The notes beneath the pieces were generated by a model. That model was not told the DNA's origin. It was given only the letters and a program-made list of their open reading frames with translations, and did not search any database. Made by a program: the position numbers and the translations under genes. From Corallococcus soli (GTDB lineage Bacteria; Myxococcota; Myxococcia; Myxococcales; Myxococcaceae): DNA of 64,000 nt. This document shows, in pieces, positions 4,133 through 18,728 of the stretch (the stretch's first letter is position 1; each line of letters starts with the position of its first letter). The stretch is taken from assembly GCF_014930455.1 (NCBI RefSeq), contig NZ_JAAIYO010000005.1, positions 248,001-312,000 of the forward strand. The letters run 5' to 3'.

Positions 4133-4213
4133 GGCGGGTCCCGGATTCAGACGGCGAAAAAGTGGTGCGGGAGACTGCGGGTGACACGGGCACGGCGACT
4201 GCTTTGCCGGAAG

Positions 4214-4248
4214 GCCGGCGCCCCTCCTTCAACGAAGAGGACGCCGGC
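4214..4248. repeat. Strong hairpin between atpE and atpF
   Basis: GCCGGCG (4214-4220) pairs with CGCCGGC (4242-4248), and the interior also pairs partly (CCTCCTTC against GAAGAGG). It lies in the 137-bp gap just 3' of atpE on the minus strand, without a T-run. Such a structure could protect the 3' end of an atpE-containing transcript, or reduce read-through, and so raise c-subunit yield over subunit b (inference). Confidence 0.55.
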
Positions 4249-4269
4249 TCCCAGGTGTTGCCAACCGGC

Positions 4270-4500
4270 TCAGACCTTGATGGCGAGCAGGATGCAGACG
4301 ACCAGCGCGAACAGCGTCGCGCCTTCGATGAGCGCCGCGGCGATGATCATGGTGGTGCGGATGTCGCCGCCCGCGGCCGGCTGACGGCCCGTGGCGTCCA
4401 TGGCGGCGGCCGCCAGCTTACCGATGCCGAGCGCGGCGCCGATGATGGAGAGACCCGCGCCGATACCGGCGGCGAGGAAGGCAAGAGCGATGTTGGTCAT
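4270..4500 (-). CDS. atpE: ATP synthase F0 subunit c
   Basis: The 76-residue hairpin proteolipid has two membrane helices, residues about 4-27 and 48-74, joined by a polar loop (ATGRQPAAGGD). The first helix carries the close-packing glycines (AAGIGAGLSIIGAALGIG). The ion-binding carboxylate is the Glu in AALIEGATLFALVV. The residues around this Glu do not show the Gln plus Ser/Thr signature of sodium-type rings, so proton use is likely. Upstream gene atpB ends 158 bp away. Confidence 0.97.
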   Translation of the reverse strand: MTNIALAFLAAGIGAGLSIIGAALGIGKLAAAAMDATGRQPAAGGDIRTTMIIAAALIEGATLFALVVCILLAIKV

Positions 4501-4658
4501 GGGAGCACGTACTTTCGGGTGAGGCAGGACCCGCTTGTGGGGGGGTCGTGAAATCCCTTTAGGACTACCTCCGACGGCCTTTCGAACCGCCGGGTCTTCA
4601 ACCGGGGCGCGCGCAGCTTCAGGCGCCCCGTCCAGTCAGGCCGAGAAGCTTCCCCGGC

Positions 4659-5705
4659 TCAAATGTGGTGCGCCTTGCCGTGGTCGTGGCTGGCGCCAGC
4701 TTCCGCGTGGCCGTGGTCGTCGTGGTGGTGACCCATGGCCACGCTCATGCCGATGAAGAGCGCGGACAGCATGGTGAACACGTACGCCTGCACGAAGGCC
4801 ACGAACAGCTCCAGCAGGTAGATGCCGAAGGCGAACGGCACGCTCACCAGCGCCACCGCGGGGTGACGGAGCATGAAGATGAGGCCCAGCAGGAAGAAGA
4901 TGACGATGTGGCCCGCCAGCATGTTGGCGAAGAGTCGGATGGTGAGGGCGAAGGGCTTGGTGAACAGGCCCAGGAACTCCACCGGAATCATGATGGGCCA
5001 CAGCCAGGGGGCCACGCCGCCCGTCAGGTGCTTCAGGTAGCCACCGATGCCCGCCGCGCGGATGCCCGCGACCTGGGTGACGACGAAGGTGCACAGCGCC
5101 AGGCCGCAGGTGACCGCGATGTTGCCCGTGGCGGACGCCATCCAGGGGAACAGGCCCAGCAGGTTCATGAAGAGGATGAAGAAGAACGCGGTCAGCAGGT
5201 AGGGCACGTACCGGGGGCCCTCCTCCTTGCCGATGTTCTTGATGGCCAGCTCGTCGCGCACGAAGAGGACCAGCATCTCGAAGAGGTTCGCCGCCGTGCC
5301 GCGCGGAACCAGCTTCGTCTTGTCGCGGTTGCTCCACACCATCAGCGAGCCGATGAGGATGAGCGCCGCCAGCCACATCATCACCGTGTGCTTGGTGATG
5401 GAGAGGTCCACGCAGCCGGCGCCCAGGCCCGGGTACACCTCGCCGTGGCCGCTCGGGTCCGCCACCGGCGTGCAGGCGCCCTCGCTCAGGGGGATGAAGA
5501 TGCGCGGCAGGTGGACGACGATGTGGTTGTGGCTCAGCGGGATCTCGAACTCGTACTCGTTCGAGTCGGACACGTGATGGAGGATGTAGCCGGCGACGTC
5601 CTCGCCCTCGGCGTCCTTGCCCTCGTTCGCGACGCCGGCCGGACCGGAGGCCCACACGGAACCCGCGAACAGACAGGCGAACAGCACCATTGCCTTGCGC
5701 ATCAC
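4659..5705 (-). CDS. atpB: ATP synthase F0 subunit a, with signal peptide and His-rich tail
   Basis: The 348-residue product is longer than typical subunit a (about 240-270). An N-terminal signal peptide (to about residue 19, FAGSVWA) precedes a roughly 90-residue periplasmic segment with two cysteines. The membrane core then follows, including the essential Arg in [15 protein letters not shown]. The C-terminus is unusually His/Asp-rich ([14 protein letters not shown] and onward). The gene overlaps the atpI-like gene by 4 bp (ATGA). Subunit a forms the two proton half-channels against the c-ring. Confidence 0.95.
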
Positions 5706-6115
5706 TCGTCTCCGCCCGCCGGGTCTTTCGACGCGGCCATCACGTAGCTGACTTCAATCCACTGCAGCGCGAAGTAGACGCCGAAGAAGCCGCCCACGAA
5801 CGCGATCGCGCTCAAATTCCGGGACACCACCCACGCCAACCCCAGCCCCACCGCCACGCCTCTCAGCGCGAACACCACCCCGACCACCTTCAGCGCGGCC
5901 TTGAGGTCCGCCTGCGCCAGCGCCCGCCGCTTCAGGAACAGCGCGAGCACCCCCACCACCGCCGACATCCCGACGCCCAGGAGCGCCGCCACCCGGTCCT
6001 CCGCCACCTTCGGCAGCGCCGCCGCCACCACCGCGCCCACGCCCATCGCCGCCGCCGCCAGCCCCGCGTGCGCCCAGAAGGGGTCCTTCCCCTGCCGCCC
6101 GTCCCGCCCCGTCAC
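5702..6115 (-). CDS. AtpI-like F0 assembly membrane protein
   Basis: This 137-residue protein has four hydrophobic segments and lies between atpZ and atpB, the usual place of the poorly conserved atpI/uncI gene. AtpI proteins assist c-ring assembly and/or cation supply. I place the start at GTG 6115, which overlaps the TGA of the upstream atpZ gene (GTGA) and gives a tight polycistronic arrangement. A longer frame to 6220 would only overlap atpZ. The stop overlaps the atpB start. Confidence 0.7.
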
Positions 6116-6378
6116 TTGCGCTTCCCCAGCCGCGCCATCGCGTGGAGGAAGCCGTAGAACCCCACGCCAATCCCCACCAGGGACAGGCCCAGGAGCAGCC
6201 AGGGGGACGTCCCCAGCCACTTGTCCAGGAAGTACCCTCCCAGGACCCCCACCACCGCCCCGCCCACCAGCTTCCAGACCGCGGAGATGTACGGCTCCGC
6301 CGCGCGCATCTGCCGGGCCGTCTCGCCCAGCTCACTGCCCGGCGCGTCCGCCCGCTCCCGTGGCTCCTGGTCTGCCAT
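6112..6378 (-). CDS. AtpZ/AtpI family F0 subunit, first gene of the F0 operon
   Basis: This is an 88-residue protein with a short charged N-terminus and two membrane helices (about residues 35-51 and 57-76). The segment GGAVVGVLGGYFLDKWLGTSPW is characteristic of the AtpZ/AtpI family (putative F0F1-ATPase subunit), where the Gly-rich helix and the F-x-D-x-W-x-G-x-x-P pattern recur. These proteins are encoded at the head of atp operons and have been linked to ion uptake or c-ring assembly. It is the first gene of the minus-strand set. Confidence 0.8.
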   Translation of the reverse strand: MADQEPRERADAPGSELGETARQMRAAEPYISAVWKLVGGAVVGVLGGYFLDKWLGTSPWLLLGLSLVGIGVGFYGFLHAMARLGKRK

Positions 6379-6750
6379 GCGGACGCCTCACCAAACCCTG
6401 GGAAAGTCTTGGGTTTCTCTTCACCAACCCCGACCCCGCCCATACCCGCGCGGGCGCCGCTTAGCACCGAATGCGCGGCGCGTGCAACCACTCCGCTGAC
6501 CCGGGGGGTGGCGCTGGCAGCAGGGATTGCCGCACCCGCAAGCGCAGCTATCACGGTCCCGGACGGAGCGGGGGTTTCTCCTCTGGAGGAAGGGGCGCGG
6601 CGGCAGGCGGGCGAAGGGAGCGTCCGGTGGATCAGCAACGGTCGTTGCACGGGGTGACGGACGGGCGGGCGGCCCACCCGCCGCCTCTACGCGCCGGGGG
6701 TGGGCGTCGCCAGCTTGCCGGAGGACGCCTTCCGCCTCCAGGAGCCACCC
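6379..6750. other. Divergent intergenic region, atp promoter side and PEBP gene leader
   Basis: No gene is supported here. Close to the atpZ start there is an inverted repeat AAACCC (6393-6398) and GGGTTT (6411-6416), inside a less GC-rich stretch that could hold the atp promoter. Near the plus-strand gene GGCGGG (6664-6669) pairs with CCCGCC (6677-6682). I see no clear sigma-70 consensus. Confidence 0.4.
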
Positions 6751-7302
6751 ATGCCGAAGCCGCTCGAGCTCACCTCGCCCCAGTTCAAGGACGGGATGCC
6801 CATCCCCATCGCCTACACCGGCGAGGGCGAGGACAAGGCGCCCCCCCTGCACTGGGAGAACCTCCCCCCGGGGGCCAAGAGCCTGGCGCTCATCGTGGAG
6901 GACCCGGACGCGCCGGACCCGGCCCACCCGCAGCGCACCTTCTGCCACTGGGTCCTCTACAACCTGCCCCCCAACGCCCAGAGCCTGCCGGACGGGGCCA
7001 CGCTGGACGTGCTGCCGCCCGGGGTGAAGCTGGGGATGAACGACTTCCAGCGGCAGGACTACGGCGGCCCCATGCCGCCCATCGGCAGCCACCGGTACTT
7101 CTTCCGGCTGTACGCCCTGGACACGGTGCTGCCGGACCTGGGCCGGCCCTCCCGCGCGGAGCTGCGCGAGGCCATGGACGGCCACATCGTGGGCGAAGCC
7201 CAGCTCATGGGCACCTACGAGAAGGTGCACCACCACCGGGAGGAGAAGGGCGCGCCCGCCGACAAGCCGTCCACCCGCCGCAACGGGAGCCGCAACCACT
7301 GA
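6751..7302 (+). CDS. YbhB/YbcL family Raf kinase inhibitor-like (PEBP) protein
   Basis: The 183-residue product shows PEBP-fold signatures: an APPLHW-type segment near residues 31-36, EDPDAPDP around 50-57, HWVLYNLP around 67-74 and GPMPPIGSHRYFFRLYALD around 106-125. Bacterial PEBP proteins are small soluble ligand-binding proteins of mostly unknown role. ATG 6751 is preceded by AGGAG at good spacing; the in-frame GTG at 6700 lacks support. The C-terminal 25 residues are basic and His-rich and look disordered. It is convergent with the RiPP operon and probably unrelated to it. Confidence 0.85.
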   Translation: MPKPLELTSPQFKDGMPIPIAYTGEGEDKAPPLHWENLPPGAKSLALIVEDPDAPDPAHPQRTFCHWVLYNLPPNAQSLPDGATLDVLPPGVKLGMNDFQRQDYGGPMPPIGSHRYFFRLYALDTVLPDLGRPSRAELREAMDGHIVGEAQLMGTYEKVHHHREEKGAPADKPSTRRNGSRNH

Positions 7303-7329
7303 GCCGGCGGCCGGCGGCGGCGAGCCCCC

Positions 7330-7932
7330 TCAAGGGGCGGGCAGCTCGCGCACCATCACCGCGGGCAGGCCCGGCACCTTGAGGTACTCCACGCGCGTGG
7401 GGCGGGCCTCCACCGGGGGCCAGCCCGGCGCCTCCAGCGCGGCGAGGAGCCCCAGCACCGGGAAGTCGAAGGACTCCACGAGGGGCCCCACCGGGGGCAT
7501 GGGCAGCAGCCCCCACGCCAGCGCGATGCGCAGCCGCTCACAGCGGGCCACCTGCGGGACGTAGGCCGGCAGGCGTGGGCCGGGAGCATCTGACCCCAAC
7601 TCCAGGAAGCGACACCAGGCGATGGCCTCCTCGCGGTTGAGCACCTCCGGCGGCACGTCCTGGAGGAAGCGCAGGCGCAGCGGCGCCAGGTCCGGGCGCT
7701 TGGCTTCATCCACCCACGGGAGCTGTTCGCGCACGCGCTCGGTGCGGTGGTAGTCCATCATCCGTCCGGCGCGGTCCACCACCGCGCGGTCCACGCGGCC
7801 GAGCGCCTCCTGCTCCCCCGGCGTCAGCGCCAGCGGCGCCAGCGTCCGTGGCGCATCCCGCGTCCACGCCTCGCGGAAGCGCGGATCCATGTGCAGCCGC
7901 GCCAGCACTTCCAGCGTCTGTGGATAACCCAT
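7330..7932 (-). CDS. MNIO (DUF692) partner protein, last gene of the putative RiPP operon
   Basis: This 200-residue soluble protein starts 18 bp after the DUF692 gene. Its N-terminal part (about residues 5-70; RLHMDPRFREAWTRD, then LALTPGEQEALGRVD) resembles the small helical Nif11/LigA-like domain common in RiPP leader and partner proteins. The C-terminal half has no family I can name. DUF692 enzymes characteristically need an adjacent partner that binds the peptide substrate, as MbnC does for MbnB and as BufC/HvfC-type proteins are thought to do. Position and size suggest that role here. The function is inferred from context. Confidence 0.65.
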   Translation of the reverse strand: MGYPQTLEVLARLHMDPRFREAWTRDAPRTLAPLALTPGEQEALGRVDRAVVDRAGRMMDYHRTERVREQLPWVDEAKRPDLAPLRLRFLQDVPPEVLNREEAIAWCRFLELGSDAPGPRLPAYVPQVARCERLRIALAWGLLPMPPVGPLVESFDFPVLGLLAALEAPGWPPVEARPTRVEYLKVPGLPAVMVRELPAP

Positions 7933-7950
7933 GGCCGTGTCCCCTTCCCT

Positions 7951-8781
7951 TCAGGCCGCGCTCGCGCCGCAGCGCTGGAGGATGGCGCGCGCGCGCGCGA
8001 GCTCCTCCACCAGCCGCGCGAAGGGTGGAAAGCCGCTGTCCATCTCGAAGTTCACGCCCCGCACCGGACAGCGCGGCGCCACGTACTCCAACAGCCGCCA
8101 CACCTCCTCGGGCGACGTCTCCGAGTGGCTGTCCAATCGCAGCCCCTCCGCCGTCATGCCGCCCGCCAGGTGGATCTGCACCACCCGCTCCAATGGCAGA
8201 CGGTCCAGGAAGGCATACGGGTCGAACCCGTGGTTGGCCGCGTTGCAATACAGGTTGTGCAAATCCAACAACAACCCGCAGTCAGCGCCCTCCACCACGC
8301 GGCGCAGGAAGTCCGCCTCATCCAGCGTGTTGAGCGGCGTGTGGAAGAGATACGCGATGTTCTCCACCACGAAGGGCACGCCCAGGTCCGCCTGGGCCGC
8401 GCGCACGTTGCGCACGCAGGTGGCCACCGCCTCGTCCGTCAGCGGCACCGGCGTGAGCGCGCGCAGGGCCAGGTCCCCCACGCGCGTGAAACACAGATGG
8501 TCCCCGTGCCACACGCTGCCCGTCCGCTGGGTGATGCGCCGCAAGCCCTCGCGGTAGCCGGGCGCGTCCACGCCGTCCGAGCCCACCGACAGCTCCAGGC
8601 TGTGGCCCACCAGGGGATAGCGCTTCGCGAGCAGGTCCAGCCGCCGCTCCGCGTCCGGCGTGAGCGGCAGGAAGTGCTCCGGTGTCACCTCCAGCCAATC
8701 CACGCCGGGGTTGCCACGCGCCAGATGCGGGTTGAGGTCCCAGCGGTAGCTGAGCCCCACGCCAAGGAAGGGAAGGCCCAC
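7951..8781 (-). CDS. DUF692 / MNIO family multinuclear iron oxidase, candidate RiPP-modifying enzyme
   Basis: The 276-residue product has the DUF692 TIM-barrel pattern: GVGLSYR (7-13), LEVTPEHF (30-37), GHSLELS (59-65), WHGDHLCF (91-98), VENIAYLF (139-146), LLLDLHN (170-176), IHLAGG (203-208), DSHSE (217-221) and NFEMD (244-248). Candidate metal ligands include H60, H92, E140, D173, H204, D217 and H219. Characterised members (MbnB, TglH, ChrH, bufferin enzymes) use two or three irons and O2 to rearrange Cys or Asp/Asn residues of ribosomal peptides. It sits between a SAM methyltransferase and a partner protein and is six genes downstream of three small C-x-C peptides. Confidence 0.88.
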   Translation of the reverse strand: MGLPFLGVGLSYRWDLNPHLARGNPGVDWLEVTPEHFLPLTPDAERRLDLLAKRYPLVGHSLELSVGSDGVDAPGYREGLRRITQRTGSVWHGDHLCFTRVGDLALRALTPVPLTDEAVATCVRNVRAAQADLGVPFVVENIAYLFHTPLNTLDEADFLRRVVEGADCGLLLDLHNLYCNAANHGFDPYAFLDRLPLERVVQIHLAGGMTAEGLRLDSHSETSPEEVWRLLEYVAPRCPVRGVNFEMDSGFPPFARLVEELARARAILQRCGASAA

Positions 8782-8799
8782 GGTGCGCGCTCCTTCGCC

Positions 8800-9642
8800 T
8801 CAGGCCCGCCGCCGGGCCATCACCTGGAAGTGCTGGCCCAGGACGGCGAAGCCCTCGTGCGCCAGCTTCTCCTGCATCGCCAGTATCTCCTCGCGCGCGG
8901 CCCACGCGTCCCACGGCTGCCCGGAGGCGCCGCCGCGAGCGGCGGCCATGGCGTTGAGCATGTCGAAGAACATCACCGGCTTGCCGAAGATCTCCAGCAG
9001 CTCCGCGCCCGCGTCCGCCACCGCCTGCTCCAATTCGCGCACCGTGAAGGCGTGCACCGGCAGGCCGTAGGGACACGTCGTCCTGCCATCCTGGAGCGTG
9101 CGGAACGCCTCCTCCGGCCGGCCCAGCTTCAAGGAGCCGGAGAACGCCTCGTAGCGGTTGTCCACGCCCAGCACCACCGGCGCGCCCGGCTTCGCCACGC
9201 GCACCAGCTCCTTCACCGCGCGCGGATACGCATCCAGGCAGTAGGACACCGGGTCGCCTTCACAGAAGACCAGGTCGAACGCGGCATCCGGCAGGTCCAG
9301 CTTCGCCACGTCCCCCTCCATGAAGGCCACCCGGTCCAGCAGGCCCTTCGCGGTGAACTGCACGCGGGCCCCTTCCAGCATGCCCGGGGAGATGTCCAAC
9401 ACGGTGACGTGGTGGCCCGCCTCCGCGAAGCGGGTGCCGAACTTGCCCCCGCCGCCGCCCGCGTCCAGCACGCGCCAGGCCGTGCCGTCCCGGGGCAGCA
9501 GCGCCTCCACCGGCTTCCAGGTGAGGTGCTCATAAGTGAGCCAGAACAGCTTGATGGCCATCTGGCTGGGGCCCCCCTGGTCGTACTTCGGGGACACCTC
9601 GTCGTAGCGGCGCTTGAGGCTGGCGGCGTCGGCGGTGCTCAT
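8800..9642 (-). CDS. SAM-dependent methyltransferase of the putative RiPP operon
   Basis: This 280-residue class I methyltransferase has motif I WRVLDAGGGGGKFG (about 56-69), motif II VTVLDIS, a GDVAKLDLPDAAFDLVFCEGD segment and a later APVVLGVDNR strand. The enzyme type is clear; the acceptor is not. It lies 17 bp after the DUF5916 gene and 18 bp before the MNIO gene, so it is translated from the same message. A methyltransferase beside an MNIO enzyme has a precedent in the chryseobasin pathway, where ChrH and ChrI act on one peptide. Peptide methylation here is therefore plausible but unproven. Confidence 0.85.
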   Translation of the reverse strand: MSTADAASLKRRYDEVSPKYDQGGPSQMAIKLFWLTYEHLTWKPVEALLPRDGTAWRVLDAGGGGGKFGTRFAEAGHHVTVLDISPGMLEGARVQFTAKGLLDRVAFMEGDVAKLDLPDAAFDLVFCEGDPVSYCLDAYPRAVKELVRVAKPGAPVVLGVDNRYEAFSGSLKLGRPEEAFRTLQDGRTTCPYGLPVHAFTVRELEQAVADAGAELLEIFGKPVMFFDMLNAMAAARGGASGQPWDAWAAREEILAMQEKLAHEGFAVLGQHFQVMARRRA

Positions 9643-9659
9643 GGTGGGTGTGCCTTCTT

Positions 9660-11789
9660 TCAGTAGTTGAAGGAGATCTTGGACAGGATCCGCCGCTCCT
9701 GGGAGCCGCCGAAGGGTTGGTCCGTGTAGACGAGGAAGATGTCGCTCCATTGGCGGTAGTGCCAACCCACCATCGCGTCCACGAACACGCCGTTCACGGA
9801 GTTGTAGTCCGCCAGCTCGTACACCACGCCCTTCTGCAATGTCAGACGCGCGTAGAGGTCCGGGCTGAAGTGGTAGCGCAGCTGCGCGTAGCCGGAGAAG
9901 CTGTGGCCGTCACCGGAGGTGCCGAAGAGGTCGCTGTTCTCCGGCACGTCGAAGTTGCGTGTGTAGAAGCCGCTGAGCTTGGCGACGAAGTGTCGCCCCA
10001 GCTTCATGTTGACCGCGCCGTTGAGGCCGCGAATCTGGCCGCCCAGGAACCGGCCGCCAATGGCCGTCAGCGTGTAGTTCTGCCAGTCGTGGGGGAACAG
10101 CGTGAAGCCGAACGTGCCGAAGCGGTCTCGGAACCCCAGGTTGTCGTCATAGACGCCGTCGAAGATGAGCGCGAAGTCGTGGTGCAGGTACGGCTGGACG
10201 TTGAGCCGCTGACGCCAGCGCGTGCGCTGGTGTTCGTGATTGCGGCGCCACAGCGTGTCCCACGTCACGTCCAGGCGGGGCAGGAAGCGCCACTTGGGGA
10301 ACGGGTTCAGGAACAGGCGCGAGTTGTAGCCCTGCTTGTCGACGACGGGCGTCCAGCCCAGCGGGTTCGCGTAGTTCTTCCCGATGTCCTCGAACTGCAA
10401 CCAGAACTCCGACAGCGTGTCGAAGCGGTGCAGGCCCACGTGGTACGCGTCCGAGTCGTCGTTGCCCAGCGGGCTCCAGCTCTTGAGCGCCTGCGCCTGG
10501 ATGAAGAACTCCTCGAAGAGGTGGAAGTTGCCGTCCACGCCCACCGTCTGGAAGTCGGAGTCCCCGAAGATGCCGCCCCGGCCGCTGCGGTTGAGCGCCA
10601 CCAGCGAAATCATCGACCGCTTGCCAATGTCGTGCTGGAGGCGCAGCACGCCGGAGTTGACGTTCTCGTAGACCTCCCGGCCGTTCGCGTCCTTGCCGGT
10701 GAAGTCGCGGTGCTGGATGTCCATCATCGCGAAGTTCGTGTCGCCAATCTTGCCGGTGAGCTGCAACCCGCCCCACACCCGGTCATGCGGCCTGAGCGCG
10801 ATGCGGCGCGAGGTGAAGATGTTGATGGGCGCGATGAAGAGGTGCTCGCTCTCCAGGAAGAACTGGCGGCGCTCCGGCAGCAGCGGCTGGTCGGTGTCCA
10901 GCAGCAGGAAGCTCTGGTCCGCTTCGGCGTCGCTGAAGTCCGGGTTGGCCGTCAGCTTCATGGACAGCCAGGGGGTGGGGTCGAAGCGCGCGTCCGCGCC
11001 CACGTTGGGCCGGAACACGCCGCGGCCGTCGGTGGACTTGAGCGCCACCGTGGTGGCCACGTAAGGGGTGACGCTGAAGATGGAGCGCGGGTTGATGTTC
11101 TTGAGCCCGCTCAGGTGCGGGTAGCGGCTCACCTTCGCGCTGTTCACGCCGTCCGGCGTCCAGTTGCTCCACTCCTGGTTGCGCGACTGCTCGCGGTCCA
11201 GGAGCATGCCGAACGTCAGCTCCTCCTTCTTCTCGAACTGGAAGTTCGCGAACGGGATGCGCACCTCCGCGATCCACCCGTCCGACACCACCGTGGACTT
11301 CGTCTCCCACTCGCCGCGCCAGTTGGTGGAGAACGCCTCGCCGTCATCCACGATGCGCCCGTCGGTGCGCACGCCCAGCGGGTTGGTCCAGAAGAAGTAC
11401 GCGTTGCGGTGGTCCAGGTACGTGTCCAGGATGACGGTGATGTTGTCCTCCTGGTGGAGGAACCCCTCGTTCTGCATGGTGTAGCCGGTGATGCGCTCCG
11501 GCTTGGAGTCCAGGCAGTGGAAGAGGAAGTAGAGGTTGTCGCTGTCGTAGAGGATGCGGACCTTGGTGTCGTCCGGCGCGGGGCGGCCGTAGTCCACGCG
11601 CGTGAGGAACCAGTTGCCAATCTCCGGCGCCGTCTGCCACGCCGGCTCGTCCCCCTTGCCGTCGATGGTGATGGCTTCCTTCGTTGGCGTCGCCGTGACC
11701 TTGTAGGTCGAATCGGCGAAGCCCAGGGCGGGCACCAGCGCGACACACAGCGCGGCGCCCCAGCGACACACGTTTCGTAAGGGGCTCAT
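9660..11789 (-). CDS. DUF5916 / CBM9-like domain outer-membrane beta-barrel protein
   Basis: The 709-residue product has a signal peptide (about residues 1-25, ending GFADS). A family-9 carbohydrate-binding-like beta-sandwich follows (about 30-210; ITIDGKGDEPAW, then DNLYFLFHC). The long C-terminal region of alternating hydrophobic and aromatic strands ends in Tyr (ILSKISFNY), as expected for outer-membrane barrels. This matches what databases call DUF5916. Specific function is unknown. The ATG overlaps the MFS stop (ATGA), so it is part of the operon. It may pass or anchor the operon's product at the outer membrane (inference). Confidence 0.8.
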   Translation of the reverse strand: MSPLRNVCRWGAALCVALVPALGFADSTYKVTATPTKEAITIDGKGDEPAWQTAPEIGNWFLTRVDYGRPAPDDTKVRILYDSDNLYFLFHCLDSKPERITGYTMQNEGFLHQEDNITVILDTYLDHRNAYFFWTNPLGVRTDGRIVDDGEAFSTNWRGEWETKSTVVSDGWIAEVRIPFANFQFEKKEELTFGMLLDREQSRNQEWSNWTPDGVNSAKVSRYPHLSGLKNINPRSIFSVTPYVATTVALKSTDGRGVFRPNVGADARFDPTPWLSMKLTANPDFSDAEADQSFLLLDTDQPLLPERRQFFLESEHLFIAPINIFTSRRIALRPHDRVWGGLQLTGKIGDTNFAMMDIQHRDFTGKDANGREVYENVNSGVLRLQHDIGKRSMISLVALNRSGRGGIFGDSDFQTVGVDGNFHLFEEFFIQAQALKSWSPLGNDDSDAYHVGLHRFDTLSEFWLQFEDIGKNYANPLGWTPVVDKQGYNSRLFLNPFPKWRFLPRLDVTWDTLWRRNHEHQRTRWRQRLNVQPYLHHDFALIFDGVYDDNLGFRDRFGTFGFTLFPHDWQNYTLTAIGGRFLGGQIRGLNGAVNMKLGRHFVAKLSGFYTRNFDVPENSDLFGTSGDGHSFSGYAQLRYHFSPDLYARLTLQKGVVYELADYNSVNGVFVDAMVGWHYRQWSDIFLVYTDQPFGGSQERRILSKISFNY

Positions 11790-13093
11790 CCGGGCTCCGA
11801 GTTGGGGTTGAGCGCGGCCACCGGCGCCGCGACAGGGGGAAGTTCCGGGGACTCGCGGACCCTCGACACACAGCCGAGGGCCAGCACGAGGGCCGCCGAG
11901 GAGAGGAGGAACGTGAAGCCGATGCCGGCCTTCTGCGCGACGAGGCCGTAGGTGATGGGCGCGAGCACGCCCGCCAGCGCCGCGCTGGAGCCCAGCGCCC
12001 CCATGAAGCGGCCGCGCTCCGCGGGCGACGGCACCTGCTCCACCACCAGCGCCGCCGCGGAGCCGCGGTGCAGGCCATCCGGCACCGCGAGCAGCACCCA
12101 CGACGCCACCAGCGCGCCCAGCGCGTATCCGCGCGGCAGCCACCCGGAGGCGCCGAGCACCGCCGCCATCACCGCCATGCCGGCCAGGCCCGGCGTGATG
12201 AGGCCCACGCGCCGGGGCAGCCGGTCCGACAGCCGGCCGCCAAAGGGCTGCACGAAGGCGAACACGAGCCAGGACACCGCCACCAGCGGCCCCACCAGCT
12301 CCCCGGGCGCGCCCAGCTCCACCGCGTACAGCGGCAGGTACGTGGGAAACAGCGCCAGCGCGAAGGTGAAGAAGAACTGCCAGAGGAACAGGCCCGAAAG
12401 GCGCGGGTGGTCCTTCACGTAGGTGAAGGGGGACACGAGCCCCTGGAGCGCCAGCGCCCAGCCCGTCCGCACCCCGCCCGCCCCCGCGCGGGGCGCGGGC
12501 TGGGAGTCGTCCAGCGACAGCAGCAGCAGGCTGCCCACCAGGAACAGGGCGCCCGCGAGGAAGAAGGTGCCGCTCACCGACAGCGCGCGGATGACCGCCG
12601 AGGAGGCGAACAGCGCCGCCACGAACACCAGGTTCGAGGTGGCATCCAGCATCGCGAAGATGGTGGCGCGCTGCTTCGTGGGCGCGAAGTCCGCCACCAT
12701 CGCGTTGGACACGGGCGCCGCGCTGCGCGCCAGGAGCATCTTCAAGATCATCACCGCCGCGAGCGGCGTCGGGTCGTCCACCAGCGCCACCGCCGGCACC
12801 ATCAGCGACGTGAGCAGCGACAGCCCCACCACGAAGGGCTTGCGGCCATGGCGGTCCGACAGTGCGCCCAGCACCGGCTGCGCGAAGATGGGCAGCAGCG
12901 AGCCCACGGTGTAGAGCAGGCCAATCTGCTGGAAATCCAGCCCGCGCGAGCGCAGGTACAACGGCATCACCGGGTTGAGCAGGCCCGCGGCCACCATGCC
13001 CACCAGCCCCGAGCCGAGCATCACCCGCAGGTTGCCCAGCCCCTTCGTCAACCCATACATCTCCCGGAGGGCCTGCACGCCCTGGCGGATCAT
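11786..13093 (-). CDS. MFS transporter of the putative RiPP operon
   Basis: This is a 435-residue polytopic protein with about 12 hydrophobic helices in two six-helix halves. The MFS signature between helices 2 and 3 is LGALSDRHGRKP (about residues 76-87), and its counterpart in the second half is FGGRLSDRLPRRVG. It resembles drug/metabolite efflux members. It overlaps both neighbours by 4 bp (ATGA at 13090-13093 and 11786-11789), so it is cotranscribed with the Lon-like gene and the outer-membrane protein. Export of the mature peptide or its intermediate is the natural guess; substrate specificity cannot be read from the sequence. Confidence 0.88.
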   Translation of the reverse strand: MIRQGVQALREMYGLTKGLGNLRVMLGSGLVGMVAAGLLNPVMPLYLRSRGLDFQQIGLLYTVGSLLPIFAQPVLGALSDRHGRKPFVVGLSLLTSLMVPAVALVDDPTPLAAVMILKMLLARSAAPVSNAMVADFAPTKQRATIFAMLDATSNLVFVAALFASSAVIRALSVSGTFFLAGALFLVGSLLLLSLDDSQPAPRAGAGGVRTGWALALQGLVSPFTYVKDHPRLSGLFLWQFFFTFALALFPTYLPLYAVELGAPGELVGPLVAVSWLVFAFVQPFGGRLSDRLPRRVGLITPGLAGMAVMAAVLGASGWLPRGYALGALVASWVLLAVPDGLHRGSAAALVVEQVPSPAERGRFMGALGSSAALAGVLAPITYGLVAQKAGIGFTFLLSSAALVLALGCVSRVRESPELPPVAAPVAALNPNSEPG

Positions 13094-13713
13094 GGCGCCT
13101 CCGGCTTCGTGACGGCCGCCGCGTCCGCGCGCGGCTCCAACCCCAGCACCGCCGACACCGCCCGCGTGAGCGTGGGCACCGGCCGCACGTCCAGCGCCGT
13201 CAGGGCATGCGCGTCGAAACCGCTGTCCTCCGGCACGTACACGGCCACCCTCCCCGCCTGGGGAAACACCTGCTTCACGTAGGACTGGGCCACGCCCAGC
13301 TTTCCCTGGAGGAACTCGCGCGGCGCGGGCGCGAGCCGCTCACCGTGCTCCTCCAGCGCCACCCCCGTGCCCAGGAAGGGCGACGGCAGCGGGCGGCCGC
13401 TCAGGAGCGCCACCCAGGCGACGAACAACGGCAACGACGCGCTCCGGCCATCCAGCGTCACGTTCCCGCCGCGCGCGCGGACGTGCAGGTCGGTCTGCTC
13501 CCACGGCAGCGCGTAGCGCGCCCTGCCCAGCGCCGCGAGGTGCTGGACGTGCCGCTGCCAGACGGGCGTGAAGACCGAACCTCGCGACGCGTCCAACCAC
13601 ACGCATCCCTGGCCGGGACCCACGCGGATCTCCACGGGCACGACGCGAAAGAGCGCGCATCCGCCGACGTCCGCCTGGGTGAAGAGCAACAACTGGAGCG
13701 AATCTGGCGACAT
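13090..13713 (-). CDS. Stand-alone Lon/S16-protease-like protein, Ser-Lys pair retained
   Basis: I align the central part of this 207-residue protein to the Lon proteolytic domain. DLHVRARGGNVTLDGRSAS (75-93) matches the Lon DIHVHVPEGATPKDGPSAG region, so S91 takes the place of E. coli Lon S679. WVALLSGRPL (100-109) follows. LQGKL (135-139) matches LKEKL, so K138 takes the place of K722. VYVPEDSG (158-165) matches the Lon IP-E strand. No ATPase domain is present. With its place directly after the peptide genes, a leader-peptidase role is my inference. A non-catalytic role cannot be excluded. The start at 13713 has a poor Shine-Dalgarno. Confidence 0.72.
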   Translation of the reverse strand: MSPDSLQLLLFTQADVGGCALFRVVPVEIRVGPGQGCVWLDASRGSVFTPVWQRHVQHLAALGRARYALPWEQTDLHVRARGGNVTLDGRSASLPLFVAWVALLSGRPLPSPFLGTGVALEEHGERLAPAPREFLQGKLGVAQSYVKQVFPQAGRVAVYVPEDSGFDAHALTALDVRPVPTLTRAVSAVLGLEPRADAAAVTKPEAP

Positions 13714-13740
13714 GGGCGGGCGTCAGGGATTGAAAAGACA

Positions 13741-13771
13741 GCCGGGTGGAGGCGCACGGCCTCCACCCGGC
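13741..13771 (-). terminator. 13-bp perfect hairpin with T-rich tail after the peptide genes
   Basis: GCCGGGTGGAGGC (13741-13753) and GCCTCCACCCGGC (13759-13771) form a perfect stem with a 5-nt loop. On the minus strand the stem is followed by TGTCTTTTC. It lies between the third peptide gene and the Lon-like gene. This is an intrinsic terminator or attenuator, and probably gives abundant peptide mRNA with limited read-through to the enzyme genes. Confidence 0.8.
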
Positions 13772-13781
13772 CGTGATGGCA

Positions 13782-13886
13782 CTACGCCGCCCGCCGGACG
13801 GCGCCCGTCTCAGGGGCAATGCCCCCACAACACATGCACCTGCCGGACGAAGCGATACAGCGGACGAGCCTGGTCTTGAGGTCCAT
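13782..13886 (-). CDS. Putative RiPP precursor peptide C (34 residues)
   Basis: ATG 13886 has GGAG 7 nt upstream, in the same context as peptide A (GGAGAAACACC before the ATG). The peptide begins MDLKTRLVRC and continues IASSGRCMCC then GGIAPETGAV, ending RRAA. It aligns with peptides A and B through VR-[VC]-[AI]-ASS-[DG]-[KR]-C-x-C. It carries four Cys (C10, C17, C19, C20), two more than A and B. The C-x-C-C motif is the likely site of Cys-directed modification. Small size, strong ribosome site and homology to its neighbours support a real gene. Confidence 0.8.
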   Translation of the reverse strand: MDLKTRLVRCIASSGRCMCCGGIAPETGAVRRAA

Positions 13887-13930
13887 GGTGTTTCTCCAGA
13901 CGACGGGTGATGGCGGGCGGAGCGGCGCGA

Positions 13931-14023
13931 CTACTCCGCGCGGATGACCACGCTCATGCCGTTGGAGCAGGTGCACTTGTCGGACGACGCGGCGACGCGG
14001 ACGATCTGGGCCTGGGTGTACAT
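13931..14023 (-). CDS. Putative RiPP precursor peptide B (30 residues)
   Basis: ATG 14023 has AGGAG 9 nt upstream. The peptide starts MYTQAQIVRV, continues AASSDKCTCS and ends NGMSVVIRAE. Its first 23 residues are identical to peptide A; only the C-terminal tail differs. The two cysteines form a C-T-C motif followed by S-N-G. No signal peptide or membrane segment is present, so the product is cytosolic before any processing. It lies 44 bp before peptide C and 56 bp after peptide A. Confidence 0.85.
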   Translation of the reverse strand: MYTQAQIVRVAASSDKCTCSNGMSVVIRAE

Positions 14024-14179
14024 GTTGGGATTCTCCTGGTTCAGGTTGGGTACTGCGGGATGCAACAGACGGAGCGGAACTACTCCGCCACGTTGTTCGA
14101 CAGCACCACCATGCCGTTGGAGCAGGTGCACTTGTCGGACGACGCGGCGACGCGGACGATCTGGGCCTGGGTGTACATG
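13955..14179. repeat. 70-bp direct repeat, recent duplication of the peptide gene
   Basis: Positions 13955-14024 and 14110-14179 are identical at every base I compared. They cover the start codon and the first 23 codons of peptides B and A, with a period of 155 bp. The flanking tails differ, which points to duplication followed by change confined to the C-terminal ends. Confidence 0.85.
14080..14178 (-). CDS. Putative RiPP precursor peptide A (32 residues)
   Basis: ATG 14178 has AGGAG 7 nt upstream. The peptide starts MYTQAQIVRV, continues AASSDKCTCS and ends NGMVVLSNNVAE. It is the first of three adjacent small genes that share the VR-x-x-ASS-x-[KR]-C-x-C signature. Within RiPP logic the conserved N-terminal part would be the leader bound by the PqqD-like protein or the MNIO partner, and the C-x-C part the core (inference). 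The coding DNA is part of a recent duplication with peptide B. Confidence 0.85.
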   Translation of the reverse strand: MYTQAQIVRVAASSDKCTCSNGMVVLSNNVAE

Positions 14180-14482
14180 GTGTTTCTCCTTGGTTGGATT
14201 TGCTGCGGGACAACCACTGCCGTGAAGCGCGGTGAAGCATGAACAGGGGGTCTGACATTCCCTGTCGTCCTCAGCTCGCTCCACCCAGCCGTGAAACACA
14301 GGTCTCACGACTGGCTTTCGCGGACGTCCCGACGTCAGGACGCACGCGAAACCCGGAGCCGGGGCATGGCGCTGCCGACCCTCCCCAGGAGGGGGCTCCT
14401 CGAACGGTGTGATGCCTTTGCGCGCCGCGCGGAAGCAGGAGGACCCGCGGCGCCCCGGGATGCGGGGGGAGGCTTCAGGAAC
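14179..14482. other. Intergenic stretch between PqqD-like gene and peptide A
   Basis: No coding sequence is supported. It contains a nested inverted repeat: GGAGCC (14355-14360) with GGCTCC (14394-14399), enclosing CCCTCC (14379-14384) with GGAGGG (14388-14393). There is no T-run after it. Peptide A probably has its own promoter here, but I find no convincing sigma-70 or sigma-54 consensus. Confidence 0.4.
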
Positions 14483-14764
14483 TCAGCGGACGGCGGGCGA
14501 GGGCTCGCACAGCCCCAGCTCCTGGAACTGCGCCACGGTGCGCTGGACGTCCGCGAGGATGGTGGCCTCCTGGCCCTGCGCCTCCAGCCCCCGGGCGAGG
14601 GTCTGCACGGCGTCCTCCAGCGACGTGCCGCCCCGGCACAGCTCGAAGATGCGGGCGGCCGTCTCGTTCACGCGGAAGACCTCTCCGCCCTCGGTGTCCA
14701 TGAGGAAGAAGGCTCCGTCCTGCTGCTGGACGATGACACCGGAAGTCGTGCGGGGCAGGCTCAA
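14483..14764 (-). CDS. PqqD-like (RRE-type) small protein
   Basis: The 93-residue product has the PqqD pattern: VIVQQQDGAFFLMDTEGGEVFRVNETAARIFELCRGG, then a helix with LEDAVQTLARGLEAQG and a final VQRTVAQFQELGLCE. PqqD-like winged-helix domains (RiPP recognition elements) bind leader peptides and hand them to modifying enzymes. The start is uncertain. I prefer TTG 14764 with AAGGGGG upstream, which gives the usual PqqD length. The frame stays open further upstream, but that part contains the promoter and palindrome. The gene lies 305 bp before peptide A on the same strand. Confidence 0.75.
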   Translation of the reverse strand: MSLPRTTSGVIVQQQDGAFFLMDTEGGEVFRVNETAARIFELCRGGTSLEDAVQTLARGLEAQGQEATILADVQRTVAQFQELGLCEPSPAVR

Positions 14765-14845
14765 GACATCCCCCTTCAGGACCGCGATCCGCCGGGTGCT
14801 CCCAGGAAGACCCTGGAGCCAGACCCGAGCCGCGTGTTGATGAAT

Positions 14846-14857
14846 GTATCTAGATAC
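14846..14857. promoter_or_regulatory. Perfect 12-bp palindrome GTATCTAGATAC over the -10
   Basis: GTATCTAGATAC is its own reverse complement and covers the -10 of the promoter above. That placement is typical of a repressor operator. No dedicated repressor gene is recognised next to it; the only divergent gene is a histidine kinase. Confidence 0.55.
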
Positions 14858-14875
14858 CTTCGCACGCACTGTCAA
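14847..14875 (-). promoter_or_regulatory. Sigma-70-like promoter for the PqqD-like gene
   Basis: Reading the minus strand, TTGACA (14875-14870) is followed after 17 bp by TAGATA (14852-14847). The -35 is a perfect consensus with optimal spacing; the -10 is weak. This is unusual in such GC-rich DNA and directs transcription towards the PqqD-like and peptide genes. Confidence 0.6.
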
Positions 14876-15035
14876 TGTCACACAGACTCTGGGTTTGCCG
14901 GCCGCGGGGCGCGAATATGACGTCTGGCGTATGGGAAGAAACGCGGGGATTGCCGTGGCGCGTCGTACGTCGGGTGTGCGCTGGTGGGCGGTGCGACGGG
15001 GGGGTGGCTTCACCCGGGGGCCCAGGGGTGCCAAC

Positions 15036-17735
15036 GTGGCCCGGGTGAGAAGCACTGAGCGTACGAACCGTCGGGTGGGGACGGTCCCGGAGGAGCCAGA
15101 GGCGGAGTACCGCCTCCTCGACGACATGCCCCTGGGCGTGTTCGTGCTCCGGGACGGCGTGCTCGTGCACGCGAACGCCGCGCTGGCGCGGCTCGTGGGC
15201 GCGCCCCGTGAAGAGCTGGTGGGGCAGCCGGTGACGGCGCTGCTGGAGGAGCCCCAGGCGGACACCCCGGTGGATCGGCTGGCGCGGCGGCTGGGCTCGG
15301 CGCCGGTGGCGGGCACCTACGAGGCCTGGCTGAGGACCGCGGGCGGCGGGATGCGCGTGGAATTGACGGTGCATTCGCATGCCAGGGATTGGGTGGTGCA
15401 GGCGCGGGATGTGACGTCGCGGGTGCGCCGACGCACGGTGCTGAGAAAGTTGGCGGAGCTGGGCGGGCAGGTGCGCGCGCTGCATTCCGAGGAGGCGGTG
15501 CGCGAGGAGGTGTTCCGCGGGCTGGAGGCGCTGGAGCTGGGGTTCGCGTGGTTGACGCCCCGGGGCGTGGGGGTGGAGCTGTCGGTGGCGGGGCTCGCGC
15601 CCCGGCTGGTGCCGCACGCGCCCGCGCTGGGCGGCCGGGTGCCGGTGGAGACGATGGGCGGCTGGGCCCCGGCGCTGGTGCGCACCTGGCGCGACGGCAG
15701 CGCGTGGGTGGAGGACCTGGGCGTGGAGGCGTCGCGGTTCGTGCCGGAGGCGCGCATGGACACGGTGCTGGCGGTGTTCCAGCGCGCGGAGCCGCACCGC
15801 GCGGTGGGGGTGCGCATCGACGTGGAGAACGCGCCCCTGGCCATGCTGCTGCTGGCGGCGGAGTGGCTGAGCGAGGAGGACGTGGCCGCGGTGCGGCTGT
15901 TCGGACAGCAGGTGTCGTCCGCGCTGGACGCGGCGCGCACCATCCAGCGGCTGAGCGTGCGCGCCACGGCGCTCTCCGCGCTGGGGCGGCTGGCGTCCCA
16001 GGCGGCGTCCGCGCCGCACCCGCGCGCCTTCTTCGGCTCAGGCACGGAGGAGATCGCCGGGCTGCTGTCCTGCGACGCGGTGTGCCTGCTGCTGCCGGCG
16101 GACTCGCGCCACGAGCCGGGCGAGCCGCTGGAGCTGGTGTACGCGCGCGGCCTGTCCGAGGACGCGGTGGCCCGGGTGCGCCGCGCGCGCCTGGGGTCGC
16201 TGCCCCGCCCCAGCGGGATGAGCGACGGGGTGCAGGTGCTGGACGCGGAGGCCTGCCCCGCGCCCACGCGCGACGCGCTGCGCGCCCTGGCCTTCCAGAC
16301 GCTGGTGTCGGTGCCGCTGCGGGTGCGCTCGCGCGGCGTGGGCACGCTGAGCGTGCTGTTCCACGCGCGGCGGCGGCTCACCCCGCTGGAGCTGGAGACG
16401 CTCCAGGGCATGGGCACGCACTTCGCGGCGGCCATTGAATCCCACCGGCTGCTGGACGAGGTGCGCGGGCGGGCGGAGGACCTGGCGCTGATGCACGAGG
16501 TGGGCAAGGCGCTGGCGGCCACGCTGGAGTTGGATCGGCTGCTGGCCACGGGCGTCACCAGCCTGGCGCGCATCGTGGACGTGCCGGACGCCTACGTGCT
16601 CCTGCCGGACGCGAAGGGGGAGCGGCTGGCCATCCGCGCGGCGACGGGCGGGCACCCGGAGCTGGTGGGCCGGGACCTGCCGCTGGATTTGTCCCCGCAC
16701 TCGCTGGCCGGCGAGGTGTTCCGCACGCGCCAGCCGCTGCGGGTGGAGGACGCGCGCGTGGACGTGCGGATGGACGACGAGCTGCGCCGGGCCACGGACG
16801 GCGTGGCGTACATGGTGCTGCCGCTCGCCGTGCACGCGCAGATGGTGGGCGTGGCGGTGATGGTGGAGACGCGCCGGCCCCGCCGCTTCACGCCCTCGGA
16901 GCTGGAGCGGGCGGACGCCATCGCCAACCAGCTGTCGCTGGCGCTGGAAGGGGCGCGGCTGGTGGAGGACCTGAAGAAGAGCTACGCGGAGCTGGCGCGC
17001 GCGCAGGAGCAGTTGGTGCACCGCGAGCGGCTGGCCGCGCTGGGCGAGCTGTCCGCCGTCGTGGCCCACGAGGTGCGCAACCCCCTGGGCGCCATCTTCA
17101 ATTCGGTGGCCACCATCCGCCGCATCATCGGCGCGGAGAGCCCGGCGGCGCCGCTGGTGGACATCGTGGGGGAGGAGGCGGACCGGCTCAACCGCATCGT
17201 CGCGGACCTGCTCACCTTCGCGCGCCCCCCGTCGCCGCACCTGTATCCCGTGTCCGTGACGCAGCTGCTGGAGGAGGCGGTGGGCGGCGCGCTGTCGGAC
17301 GCGGGCGGCCAGACGCCGCCGCCGGTGAACGTGGAGTGGATGATGGAGGAGGGCGTGCCGTCGGTGACGGTGGACGAGCGGCTCATCCGCCAGGCCTTCC
17401 TCAACCTGGCCCTCAACGCGGTGCAGGCCATGCCCCAGGGCGGCACGCTGCGGGTGGTGGCCCGGCGGGCGTGGCTGGACCGGCCCGGCGTGCAGGTGGA
17501 GATCAGCGACACCGGGCCGGGCATCCCGCTGGAGCTGCGCGCGCGCGTCTTCGAGCCCTTCTTCACCACCAAGGCGCAGGGCACCGGCCTGGGGCTCGCC
17601 GTGGTGAAGCGCATCGTGGATTCGCACCTGGGACAGCTGGGGCTGGACGTGCCGGAGACAGGGGGCACCGTCTTCCGGCTCTTCCTCCCGCTGGAGCCGC
17701 CCGTGCTCCCGGTGCTGCCGCTGACGGGCGGCTGA
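15036..17735 (+). CDS. Cytosolic PAS-GAF-GAF histidine kinase
   Basis: About 899 residues with no membrane segment. An N-terminal PAS domain (PLGVFVLRDGVLVHANAALARLVG) is followed by three GAF-like regions, then a HisKA domain with the phospho-acceptor in VVAHEVRNPLGA (near residue 675). An HATPase_c domain follows, with NLALNAVQAM (N box), DTGPGIP (G1) and GTGLGLAVVKR (G2). No response regulator adjoins it. The start is uncertain: the frame is open back to 14844, but that ATG lies inside the palindrome. GTG 15036 has CAGGGG upstream and precedes the PAS domain sensibly. It is divergent from the putative RiPP genes and might sense a signal for them (weak inference). Confidence 0.88.
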   Translation: MARVRSTERTNRRVGTVPEEPEAEYRLLDDMPLGVFVLRDGVLVHANAALARLVGAPREELVGQPVTALLEEPQADTPVDRLARRLGSAPVAGTYEAWLRTAGGGMRVELTVHSHARDWVVQARDVTSRVRRRTVLRKLAELGGQVRALHSEEAVREEVFRGLEALELGFAWLTPRGVGVELSVAGLAPRLVPHAPALGGRVPVETMGGWAPALVRTWRDGSAWVEDLGVEASRFVPEARMDTVLAVFQRAEPHRAVGVRIDVENAPLAMLLLAAEWLSEEDVAAVRLFGQQVSSALDAARTIQRLSVRATALSALGRLASQAASAPHPRAFFGSGTEEIAGLLSCDAVCLLLPADSRHEPGEPLELVYARGLSEDAVARVRRARLGSLPRPSGMSDGVQVLDAEACPAPTRDALRALAFQTLVSVPLRVRSRGVGTLSVLFHARRRLTPLELETLQGMGTHFAAAIESHRLLDEVRGRAEDLALMHEVGKALAATLELDRLLATGVTSLARIVDVPDAYVLLPDAKGERLAIRAATGGHPELVGRDLPLDLSPHSLAGEVFRTRQPLRVEDARVDVRMDDELRRATDGVAYMVLPLAVHAQMVGVAVMVETRRPRRFTPSELERADAIANQLSLALEGARLVEDLKKSYAELARAQEQLVHRERLAALGELSAVVAHEVRNPLGAIFNSVATIRRIIGAESPAAPLVDIVGEEADRLNRIVADLLTFARPPSPHLYPVSVTQLLEEAVGGALSDAGGQTPPPVNVEWMMEEGVPSVTVDERLIRQAFLNLALNAVQAMPQGGTLRVVARRAWLDRPGVQVEISDTGPGIPLELRARVFEPFFTTKAQGTGLGLAVVKRIVDSHLGQLGLDVPETGGTVFRLFLPLEPPVLPVLPLTGG

Positions 17736-17840
17736 CACACCCTTGCGCGTGCAGTGAACAGTCGCCACCCCGGGCGCGTTTTCGCCGGGCGCTCCCTGCC
17801 CACCACCGGTACGCAGGGGCCGCACCTTCCAGGGAGGCGG

Positions 17841-18728
17841 ATGATGCACCGGGGTCATGTCGTGGCAGGGGTCGTGGCGTGCTTGTTCGGCTTCATGGGC
17901 GTGGCGCGCGCGGAGGCACTGCCCGTCGACGTTCCGTTCAAGGCCCGGAAGGAGGAGCCTCGCGTGGAGCTGCGCGCGGTGGCGGAGCTGGGCTTCCTGG
18001 ACGTGCTGTCACACAGCCTCGTCCAGGGCCGCGACGGGACCTCCTTCCGGTTCCCGGAGGACGGAGGGCAGGACAACCTCTACACCTTCGTGCGCCTGAG
18101 CGCGGAGCTGGCCCTGCGCGGGCGGCACACGCTCATCTTCCTGGTGCAGCCGCTGGACATCCAGACGCAGGTGGTGCTGCGGCGGGACATCCGGCTGGAC
18201 GGGCTCACGTTCCCGGAGGGCACGCCGCTGGACGTGCGCTACGCGTTCCCGTTCTACCGGGCCAGCTACCTGTATGACCTGCTGGGCGGCCCCGCGCGGG
18301 AGCTGTCGGCGGGCGCGTCGCTGCAACTGCGCAACGCCACGTTCGTCTTCACGTCGGCGGACGGGACGCTGCGGCGGGCCAACCGGGACGTGGGGCCGGT
18401 GCCGCTGCTCAAGGTGCGCGGCCGGTGGGCGCTCAGCGAGAACTGGTGGGTGGGGGTGGAGGCGGACGGCAGCTACGCGCCGGTGGCCCTCATCAACGGC
18501 GATGACGACTCCGACACGGTGGGGGCGCTGCTGGACGCGAGCCTGCGCGGCGGCGTGCGGCTCACCGACCAGGTGGAGGTGTTCCTCAACCTGCGCTACC
18601 TGGGCGGCGGCGCGCGCGGCACGTCGGACGACAACGAGGAGGAGTTCGGCGACGGCTACACGAGCAACTGGCTCAGCACGGCCACCGTGTCGCTGGGCGT
18701 GCAGTACCGGCTGCCCTCCGCTGACTGA
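17841..18728 (+). CDS. Secreted outer-membrane-type protein, unknown function
   Basis: This 295-residue product has a signal peptide (about residues 1-24, VACLFGFMGVARA then EALPV). The rest is rich in alternating hydrophobic and aromatic strands (NLYTFVRLSAELALRG, LFLNLRYLGGG-like segments) and ends VSLGVQYRLPSAD. It looks like a small beta-barrel or outer-membrane-associated protein. I cannot name a family. AGGGAGG precedes two tandem ATGs at 17841 and 17844; either could start. It follows the kinase on the same strand by about 105 bp and ends against the convergent Ser/Thr kinase gene. Confidence 0.7.
   Translation: MMHRGHVVAGVVACLFGFMGVARAEALPVDVPFKARKEEPRVELRAVAELGFLDVLSHSLVQGRDGTSFRFPEDGGQDNLYTFVRLSAELALRGRHTLIFLVQPLDIQTQVVLRRDIRLDGLTFPEGTPLDVRYAFPFYRASYLYDLLGGPARELSAGASLQLRNATFVFTSADGTLRRANRDVGPVPLLKVRGRWALSENWWVGVEADGSYAPVALINGDDDSDTVGALLDASLRGGVRLTDQVEVFLNLRYLGGGARGTSDDNEEEFGDGYTSNWLSTATVSLGVQYRLPSAD

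Follow-up and report, generated by a model that had tools for sequence, protein, structure and literature searches.

Why should a myxobacterium carry several very short C-x-C peptides beside the gene of a multinuclear non-heme iron-dependent oxidative (MNIO, DUF692) enzyme, and do these genes act together? The question is raised by a gene block of Corallococcus soli (assembly GCF_014930455.1) found on the minus strand at 7330-14764 of the window, by which we mean the whole stretch of 64,000 nucleotides analysed here (contig NZ_JAAIYO010000005.1, positions 248,001 to 312,000). The block encodes a PqqD-type protein, three C-x-C peptides, a Lon-like protein, a major facilitator superfamily (MFS) transporter, a CBM9/DUF5916 protein, an S-adenosylmethionine (SAM) methyltransferase, the MNIO and its partner. 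It probably represents an MNIO family of ribosomally synthesized and post-translationally modified peptides (RiPPs) of the Myxococcaceae, in which the repeated C-x-C peptides serve as precursors from which a modified peptide is made and secreted. The family is real and coherent and seemingly undescribed: an MNIO domain with its candidate metal ligands, an adjoining partner and linked short precursors are found together in 22/22 genomes.

The linkage was examined in 145 genomes of the order, searched with the peptide, the Lon-like protein and the MNIO, and in 195 genomes of the phylum, searched with profiles. Peptide 1 is matched strongly in 22 of the 145 genomes and weakly (E 0.07-0.53) in G006, G085 and G131; these three were dropped after inspection of the frames revealed no such peptide. 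The Lon-like protein has strong matches (E < 1e-60) in the same 22 genomes, the next being at E 2.8e-7 and weaker in 28 others; those from E 2.8e-7 to 1e-3, and a second weak match in G067, were dropped on frame length and E-value as Lon-type proteins of another kind or long frames. MNIOs in general are common, with 106/145 genomes carrying one at E <= 1e-20, and orthologues of the block MNIO (76-100% identity) number 23, namely those of the 22 peptide genomes and of G060, the next best match having 47% identity. In G060 the MFS gene is cut by the start of one contig and the adjacent kinase gene by that of another, and the missing genes therefore fall in an assembly gap. Across the phylum, the Lon-like profile finds 22 genomes (E <= 1e-10) and the peptide profile the same 22 plus one match at chance level, that in G089 (E 0.006), which is interrupted by an internal stop and was dropped. 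Peptides without the enzyme, which the preliminary description had named as the finding that would speak against its pairing of the two, were looked for, and all 22 peptide genomes carry the MNIO orthologue. So far the block has been found in Myxococcaceae only, and the search for the Lon-like protein beyond the phylum covered a protein collection and patterns drawn from close relatives, the patterns returning eight loci, all titled Corallococcus or Myxococcaceae.

The order PqqD, peptides, Lon-like protein, MFS, DUF5916 protein, methyltransferase, MNIO and partner is identical in 22/22 genomes, 19 of which (the window included) hold the block on a single contig and three (G067, G064, G058) on two. 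The flanking genes encode PEBP and a sensor kinase in Corallococcus and the genus labelled g5, HlyIII and enoyl-CoA hydratase/EutBC in G109, the only annotated genome of the genus labelled g19, and UvrA and an M18 peptidase in G081. This order is kept across three different surroundings, and the block is therefore a unit and not merely an old chromosomal stretch. Among the 16 genomes of the genus group of the window, the block is present in 14. The gap described above accounts for G060, and G069, a complete Corallococcus genome, has only stumps: PEBP and the kinase are kept, and between 6724 and 7306 of locus L151 there remain pieces of the methyltransferase (residues 226-280), the MNIO (residues 1-59) and the partner (residues 121-200), while PqqD, peptides, Lon-like protein, MFS and DUF5916 protein were not found there. 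Peptides and enzymes have been lost jointly in this genome.

The features of the block in the window are listed below in the direction of transcription; the E values of the three peptides come from a peptide profile of which these peptides are themselves rows.

14483..14764, minus strand: PqqD-type peptide-binding protein (RiPP recognition element) with a TTG start; PF05402, 52.6 bits against a cut-off of 23.4
14179..14330, minus strand: conserved non-coding block 5' of peptide 1, with the core TGTCAGACCCCC at 14246-14257; from an 11-locus alignment
14080..14178, minus strand: peptide 1, MYTQAQIVRVAASSDKCTCSNGMVVLSNNVAE; peptide profile E 1.5e-18
13931..14023, minus strand: peptide 2, MYTQAQIVRVAASSDKCTCSNGMSVVIRAE; peptide profile E 1.9e-17
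13782..13886, minus strand: peptide 3, divergent, MDLKTRLVRCIASSGRCMCCGGIAPETGAVRRAA; peptide profile E 8.4e-13
13738..13774, minus strand: terminator-like hairpin at the boundary between peptides and enzymes; 16-bp stem with 1 mismatch, then CTTTTC
13090..13713, minus strand: stand-alone Lon/S16-like protein, predicted leader or junction peptidase; from predicted fold and invariant residues
11786..13093, minus strand: MFS transporter, likely an inner-membrane exporter; PF07690, 170 bits, the direction of transport being inferred
9660..11789, minus strand: CBM9-like and DUF5916 protein, likely an outer-membrane barrel; PF06452 31.5 and PF19313 29 bits, both above cut-off
8800..9642, minus strand: class I SAM methyltransferase; PF13649, 70.3 bits
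7951..8781, minus strand: MNIO (DUF692) enzyme; PF05114, 260 bits against a cut-off of 25
7330..7932, minus strand: MNIO partner, TglI-like (PME-type 2), 200 residues; from predicted fold

All the genes of the preliminary description are present where it placed them, including their spacing: overlaps of 4 bp between the Lon-like and MFS genes and between the MFS and barrel genes, and gaps of 17-18 bp elsewhere. Its PqqD-like gene 5' of the peptides is borne out by the Pfam score given above, and its three homologous C-x-C peptides of 30-34 residues exist and match the profile, with the qualification that the third is divergent. The continuous operon that it described holds as regards close spacing, but is interrupted by the hairpin at 13738-13774 and by 304 bp, with the conserved non-coding block, between PqqD and peptide 1.

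The peptide profile finds 97 units in 22/195 genomes of the phylum, every one of which has the same block; 84 are single genes of the block (2-9 per genome), 7 are fused in one gene of G081 and 6 lie in arrays unlinked to the block (84 + 6 + 7 = 97, a regular-expression count of 85 block genes including one alternative start in L078). In the 72 distinct peptides that begin with MY, drawn from 21 loci and excluding peptide 3 of the window, its L064 counterpart, the fused units and the six unlinked peptides, the residues Y2, R9, A12, D15, C17, C19 and M23 are invariant and K16 is present in 71. These peptides are 30-36 residues long and begin MYxx[AS][QE]IVRV, positions 5-6 being AQ in 42, SE in 21, AE in 6, SQ in 2 and PE in 1. 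They end in a variable tail of 7-13 residues rich in V, T, A and I, the last residue being E in 59 and Q in 13, and 59 of the 65 tail glutamates stand at that last position. Peptide 3 of the window has C-x-C-C, lacks D-K and ends in A; among the 22 loci its only counterpart is in L064, and it may be decaying or else be a different substrate. Neither peptide 1 nor peptide 3 is matched by Pfam. A pN/pS of 0.57 was obtained over 58 N-terminal peptide DNA sequences and is uninformative on selection because many of these copies are paralogous.

The unlinked arrays, of three peptides each, occur in G062 and G066, both of which also have the full block. They lie on the minus strand at 6711-7139 of L094 and 6689-7118 of L095 and encode related peptides with extra cysteines: in all six C-x-C is kept, position 16 is S or T and the last residue is Cys, a departure from the K16 and E/Q rules that slightly lowers the odds of the proposed scheme. 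On the 8.9-kb contig of L094 no second enzyme set was seen, the neighbours with Pfam matches being an SDR, a ZIP transporter and an A2M-type protein, and the two arrays possibly encode further substrates made elsewhere. Antisense frames in L094 were rejected as genes.

These arrays bear on a different explanation, in which the substrate of the MNIO is something other than the peptides, these being small metal-binding or signalling molecules that are unmodified or methylated at most. Two observations count in its favour: some 5 kb and a hairpin separate peptides and enzymes, and two genomes hold arrays apart from the block. Against it, 22/22 peptide genomes have the MNIO orthologue, the sole broken block has lost both, and a PqqD gene stands directly 5' of the peptides; although no systematic search of the block for other small conserved frames was made, this explanation is very improbable. 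From the sequences we infer that the MNIO modifies the C-x-C peptides.

What the modification would be is suggested by the enzyme itself. In the MNIO the residues H60, H95, E140, D173, N176, H204, D217, H219 and E246 are invariant in 23/23 orthologues, and these candidate metal ligands are also matched in alignments to 3bww and TglH; some of them would bind iron. H92, tried as a further ligand, was dropped as unsupported by these two alignments. Among curated models BufB comes closest (197 bits against a cut-off of 310), followed by HvfB (189 bits against 360), below whose cut-offs three MNIO orthologues fall as well; the ApyH, ChrH and MbnB models score behind them, and at 27.7 bits against a cut-off of 325 for MbnB the block differs from the methanobactin system (MbnA/MbnB/MbnC). 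According to PMC13097082, a 5-thiooxazole is formed at Lys-Cys with a loss of 4 Da, and Arg15, Arg16, Asp249 (the proposed base) and Phe250 are the named residues of FonB. R13, W14, D248 and S249 of the block MNIO, in motifs read via 3bww, look like the matching sites, so that the base would be kept and the specificity positions changed. Given the nearness to BufB and HvfB and the apparently kept base, a 5-thiooxazole is a first guess rather than a conclusion. The MNIO would oxidise the cysteines of D-K-C-x-C, either one or both of them, and heterocycles of the 5-thiooxazole type, like those formed at the Lys-Cys of captophorins, are the most likely result; the methyltransferase may cap the product.

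The same nearness raises the possibility that the block is a variant bufferin/captophorin copper-detoxifying system whose precursor has been shortened and has lost its signal peptide. Captophorins (bufferins, oxazolin and fontiphorin, made by an MNIO with a DUF2063 protein) resemble the block in the top MNIO models, BufB and HvfB, in the Lys-Cys common to their EGKCG motif and the peptides, and in repeated sites per precursor. They differ in that the block MNIO is below both curated cut-offs, the partner has no DUF2063 match, and the precursors of 30-36 residues show, by eye, no Sec-like stretch or signal, no EGKCG and no DUF2282 or Cys-Lys type; the block moreover has its own PqqD, Lon-like protein, MFS transporter, DUF5916 protein and methyltransferase. 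A variant bufferin is accordingly quite improbable. Metal binding, for example of copper, is weakly supported as the most likely purpose of the product of the new family.

The partner, which the preliminary description had placed next to the MNIO, has a predicted structure (pLDDT 91.6) whose sole PDB matches below E 1e-3 are TglI, the partner of the MNIO TglH, in the TglHI complex; Os1348 and MbnC come next in the fold comparison. No Pfam family matches it at E <= 10, and some orthologues match PF14407 below its cut-off. The TglA/TglH/TglI system of 3-thiaglutamate (pearlin) in Pseudomonas syringae likewise combines an MNIO with a TglI-type partner. PqqD is found 5' of the peptides in 21/21 other loci that extend that far; it scores 19.9 bits, below the cut-off of 46, with the equivalogue model of the PQQ pathway. 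In G109 the PqqD gene lies in two out-of-register pieces (L080 12125-12396), through a frameshift or a sequencing error. PqqD, together with the TglI-like partner, would hold the leader at the N-terminus, MYxx[AS][QE].

The extent of that leader is indicated by a natural fusion. The fused precursor of G081 has a single MYNKPQ start, at an assumed start codon, followed by seven units in one frame with the pattern I-x-R-[VL]-[AS]-[AP]-T-T-D-K-C-T-C-S-[NG]-G-M-tail. Four units end in AE, one in PE and one in AA, with AQ at the final end, so that 6/7 ends are [AP][EQ]. A single start with repeated units suggests that residues 1-6 of the peptides are a leader and that cleavage takes place between [A/S][E/Q] and Ile7. 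In PMC12710340 a recognition sequence of PqqD-type RiPP recognition elements is given as W/Y/L-x-x-P/L/I; Y-x-x-P is present in the fused precursor and in 1/72 MY peptides, the other 71 having A or S at that position. A search of the protein collection for further fused precursors gave zero matches and also missed the protein of that very genome, so it is uninformative on their spread.

The candidate for this cleavage is the Lon-like protein. Its similarity to Lon/S16, claimed from the start, stands on the predicted fold and invariant residues and fails by Pfam, where Lon_C gives 12.7 bits against a cut-off of 21.1. The model (pLDDT 91.8) has Lon proteolytic domains as its top PDB matches, and S91 and K138, invariant in 38/38 sequences, align with the Ser of GPSAG and the Lys of KEK of Lon with a probability of 42%. 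It thus shares the predicted fold and the Ser-Lys pair of Lon (S16) proteases, and differs from them in having 207 residues and no ATPase and in occurring in 22/195 phylum genomes, always in the block. The absence of an AAA+ ATPase in this stand-alone protein, and the almost equal scores of the Lon-like folds of RadA, ComM and BrxL, would fit a non-proteolytic role in peptide binding or assembly, with a general host protease taking off the leader; given the invariance of the residues aligned to the Lon dyad, such a role is unlikely. As a peptidase, the protein would cut after [A/S][E/Q] and before Ile7, releasing I-x-R-V...C-x-C...M-tail-[E/Q]. The MFS transporter and the DUF5916 protein, which we take to be a barrel, may then export the product, and the variable tails would yield several products per genome. 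The complete scheme, a new RiPP class in which a stand-alone Lon domain, as dedicated maturation protease, cuts after [A/S][E/Q] at the leader and the unit junctions, a single MNIO converts the arrays or the fused polyprotein into a small combinatorial set of double-heterocycle metal-binding peptides, and these are secreted via the MFS transporter and the DUF5916 barrel of the outer membrane, is offered tentatively, as a real but minor possibility.

The expression signals are in keeping with separate control of peptides and enzymes. By script, 18/22 loci have, in the space that separates the last peptide from the Lon-like gene, a hairpin with T-rich sequence behind it; it beats all 60 shuffles in 17/22, including the window, does not stand out in L093 (4/60 shuffles reach it) and is lacking in L078, L079, L081 and L082. 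Within the 304-bp gap before peptide 1, the conserved stretch at 14179-14330 is likely a promoter or operator. TGTCAGACC is kept in 14/14 Corallococcus loci and 0/8 others, and the genome of 9.4 Mb contains the 14-mer TGTCAGACCCCCTG a single time. The stretch also bears GTGTTTCACG, and at roughly the corresponding position the g19 loci carry another inverted repeat, GCCTGTG...CACAGGC. With the hairpin behind them and this block before them, the peptides may be served by a promoter and a terminator of their own, and they may be produced in excess over the enzymes. No riboswitch was matched in Rfam at E <= 1 within 6000-18500.

As the preliminary description had supposed, no locus with this combination was found described in the open-licence PubMed Central literature; other print may hold one. 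The recent MNIO survey PMC12452194 took the gene preceding the MNIO as the candidate precursor in its main screen; a screen of that design would miss this family, whose peptides are separated from the MNIO by four genes. The main text of the survey contains none of the terms Myxococc, Corallococcus, PqqD, CXC or Lon protease. What the family offers as new are closely spaced C-x-C sites and an ATPase-less Lon-type candidate RiPP peptidase, together with a natural fused precursor that hints at the leader end and the unit cut sites. A literature search on DUF5916 found nothing, and the block suggests a role for this protein if the export step is true. The genome of the window has three MNIO genes in all, that of the block and two others lying at G000:C2:930644-931426 and G000:C3:567196-567930 (L001, L003). 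Past the PEBP gene, at 3584-5705 of the minus strand of the window, lie genes of the F-type ATP synthase subunits b and a.

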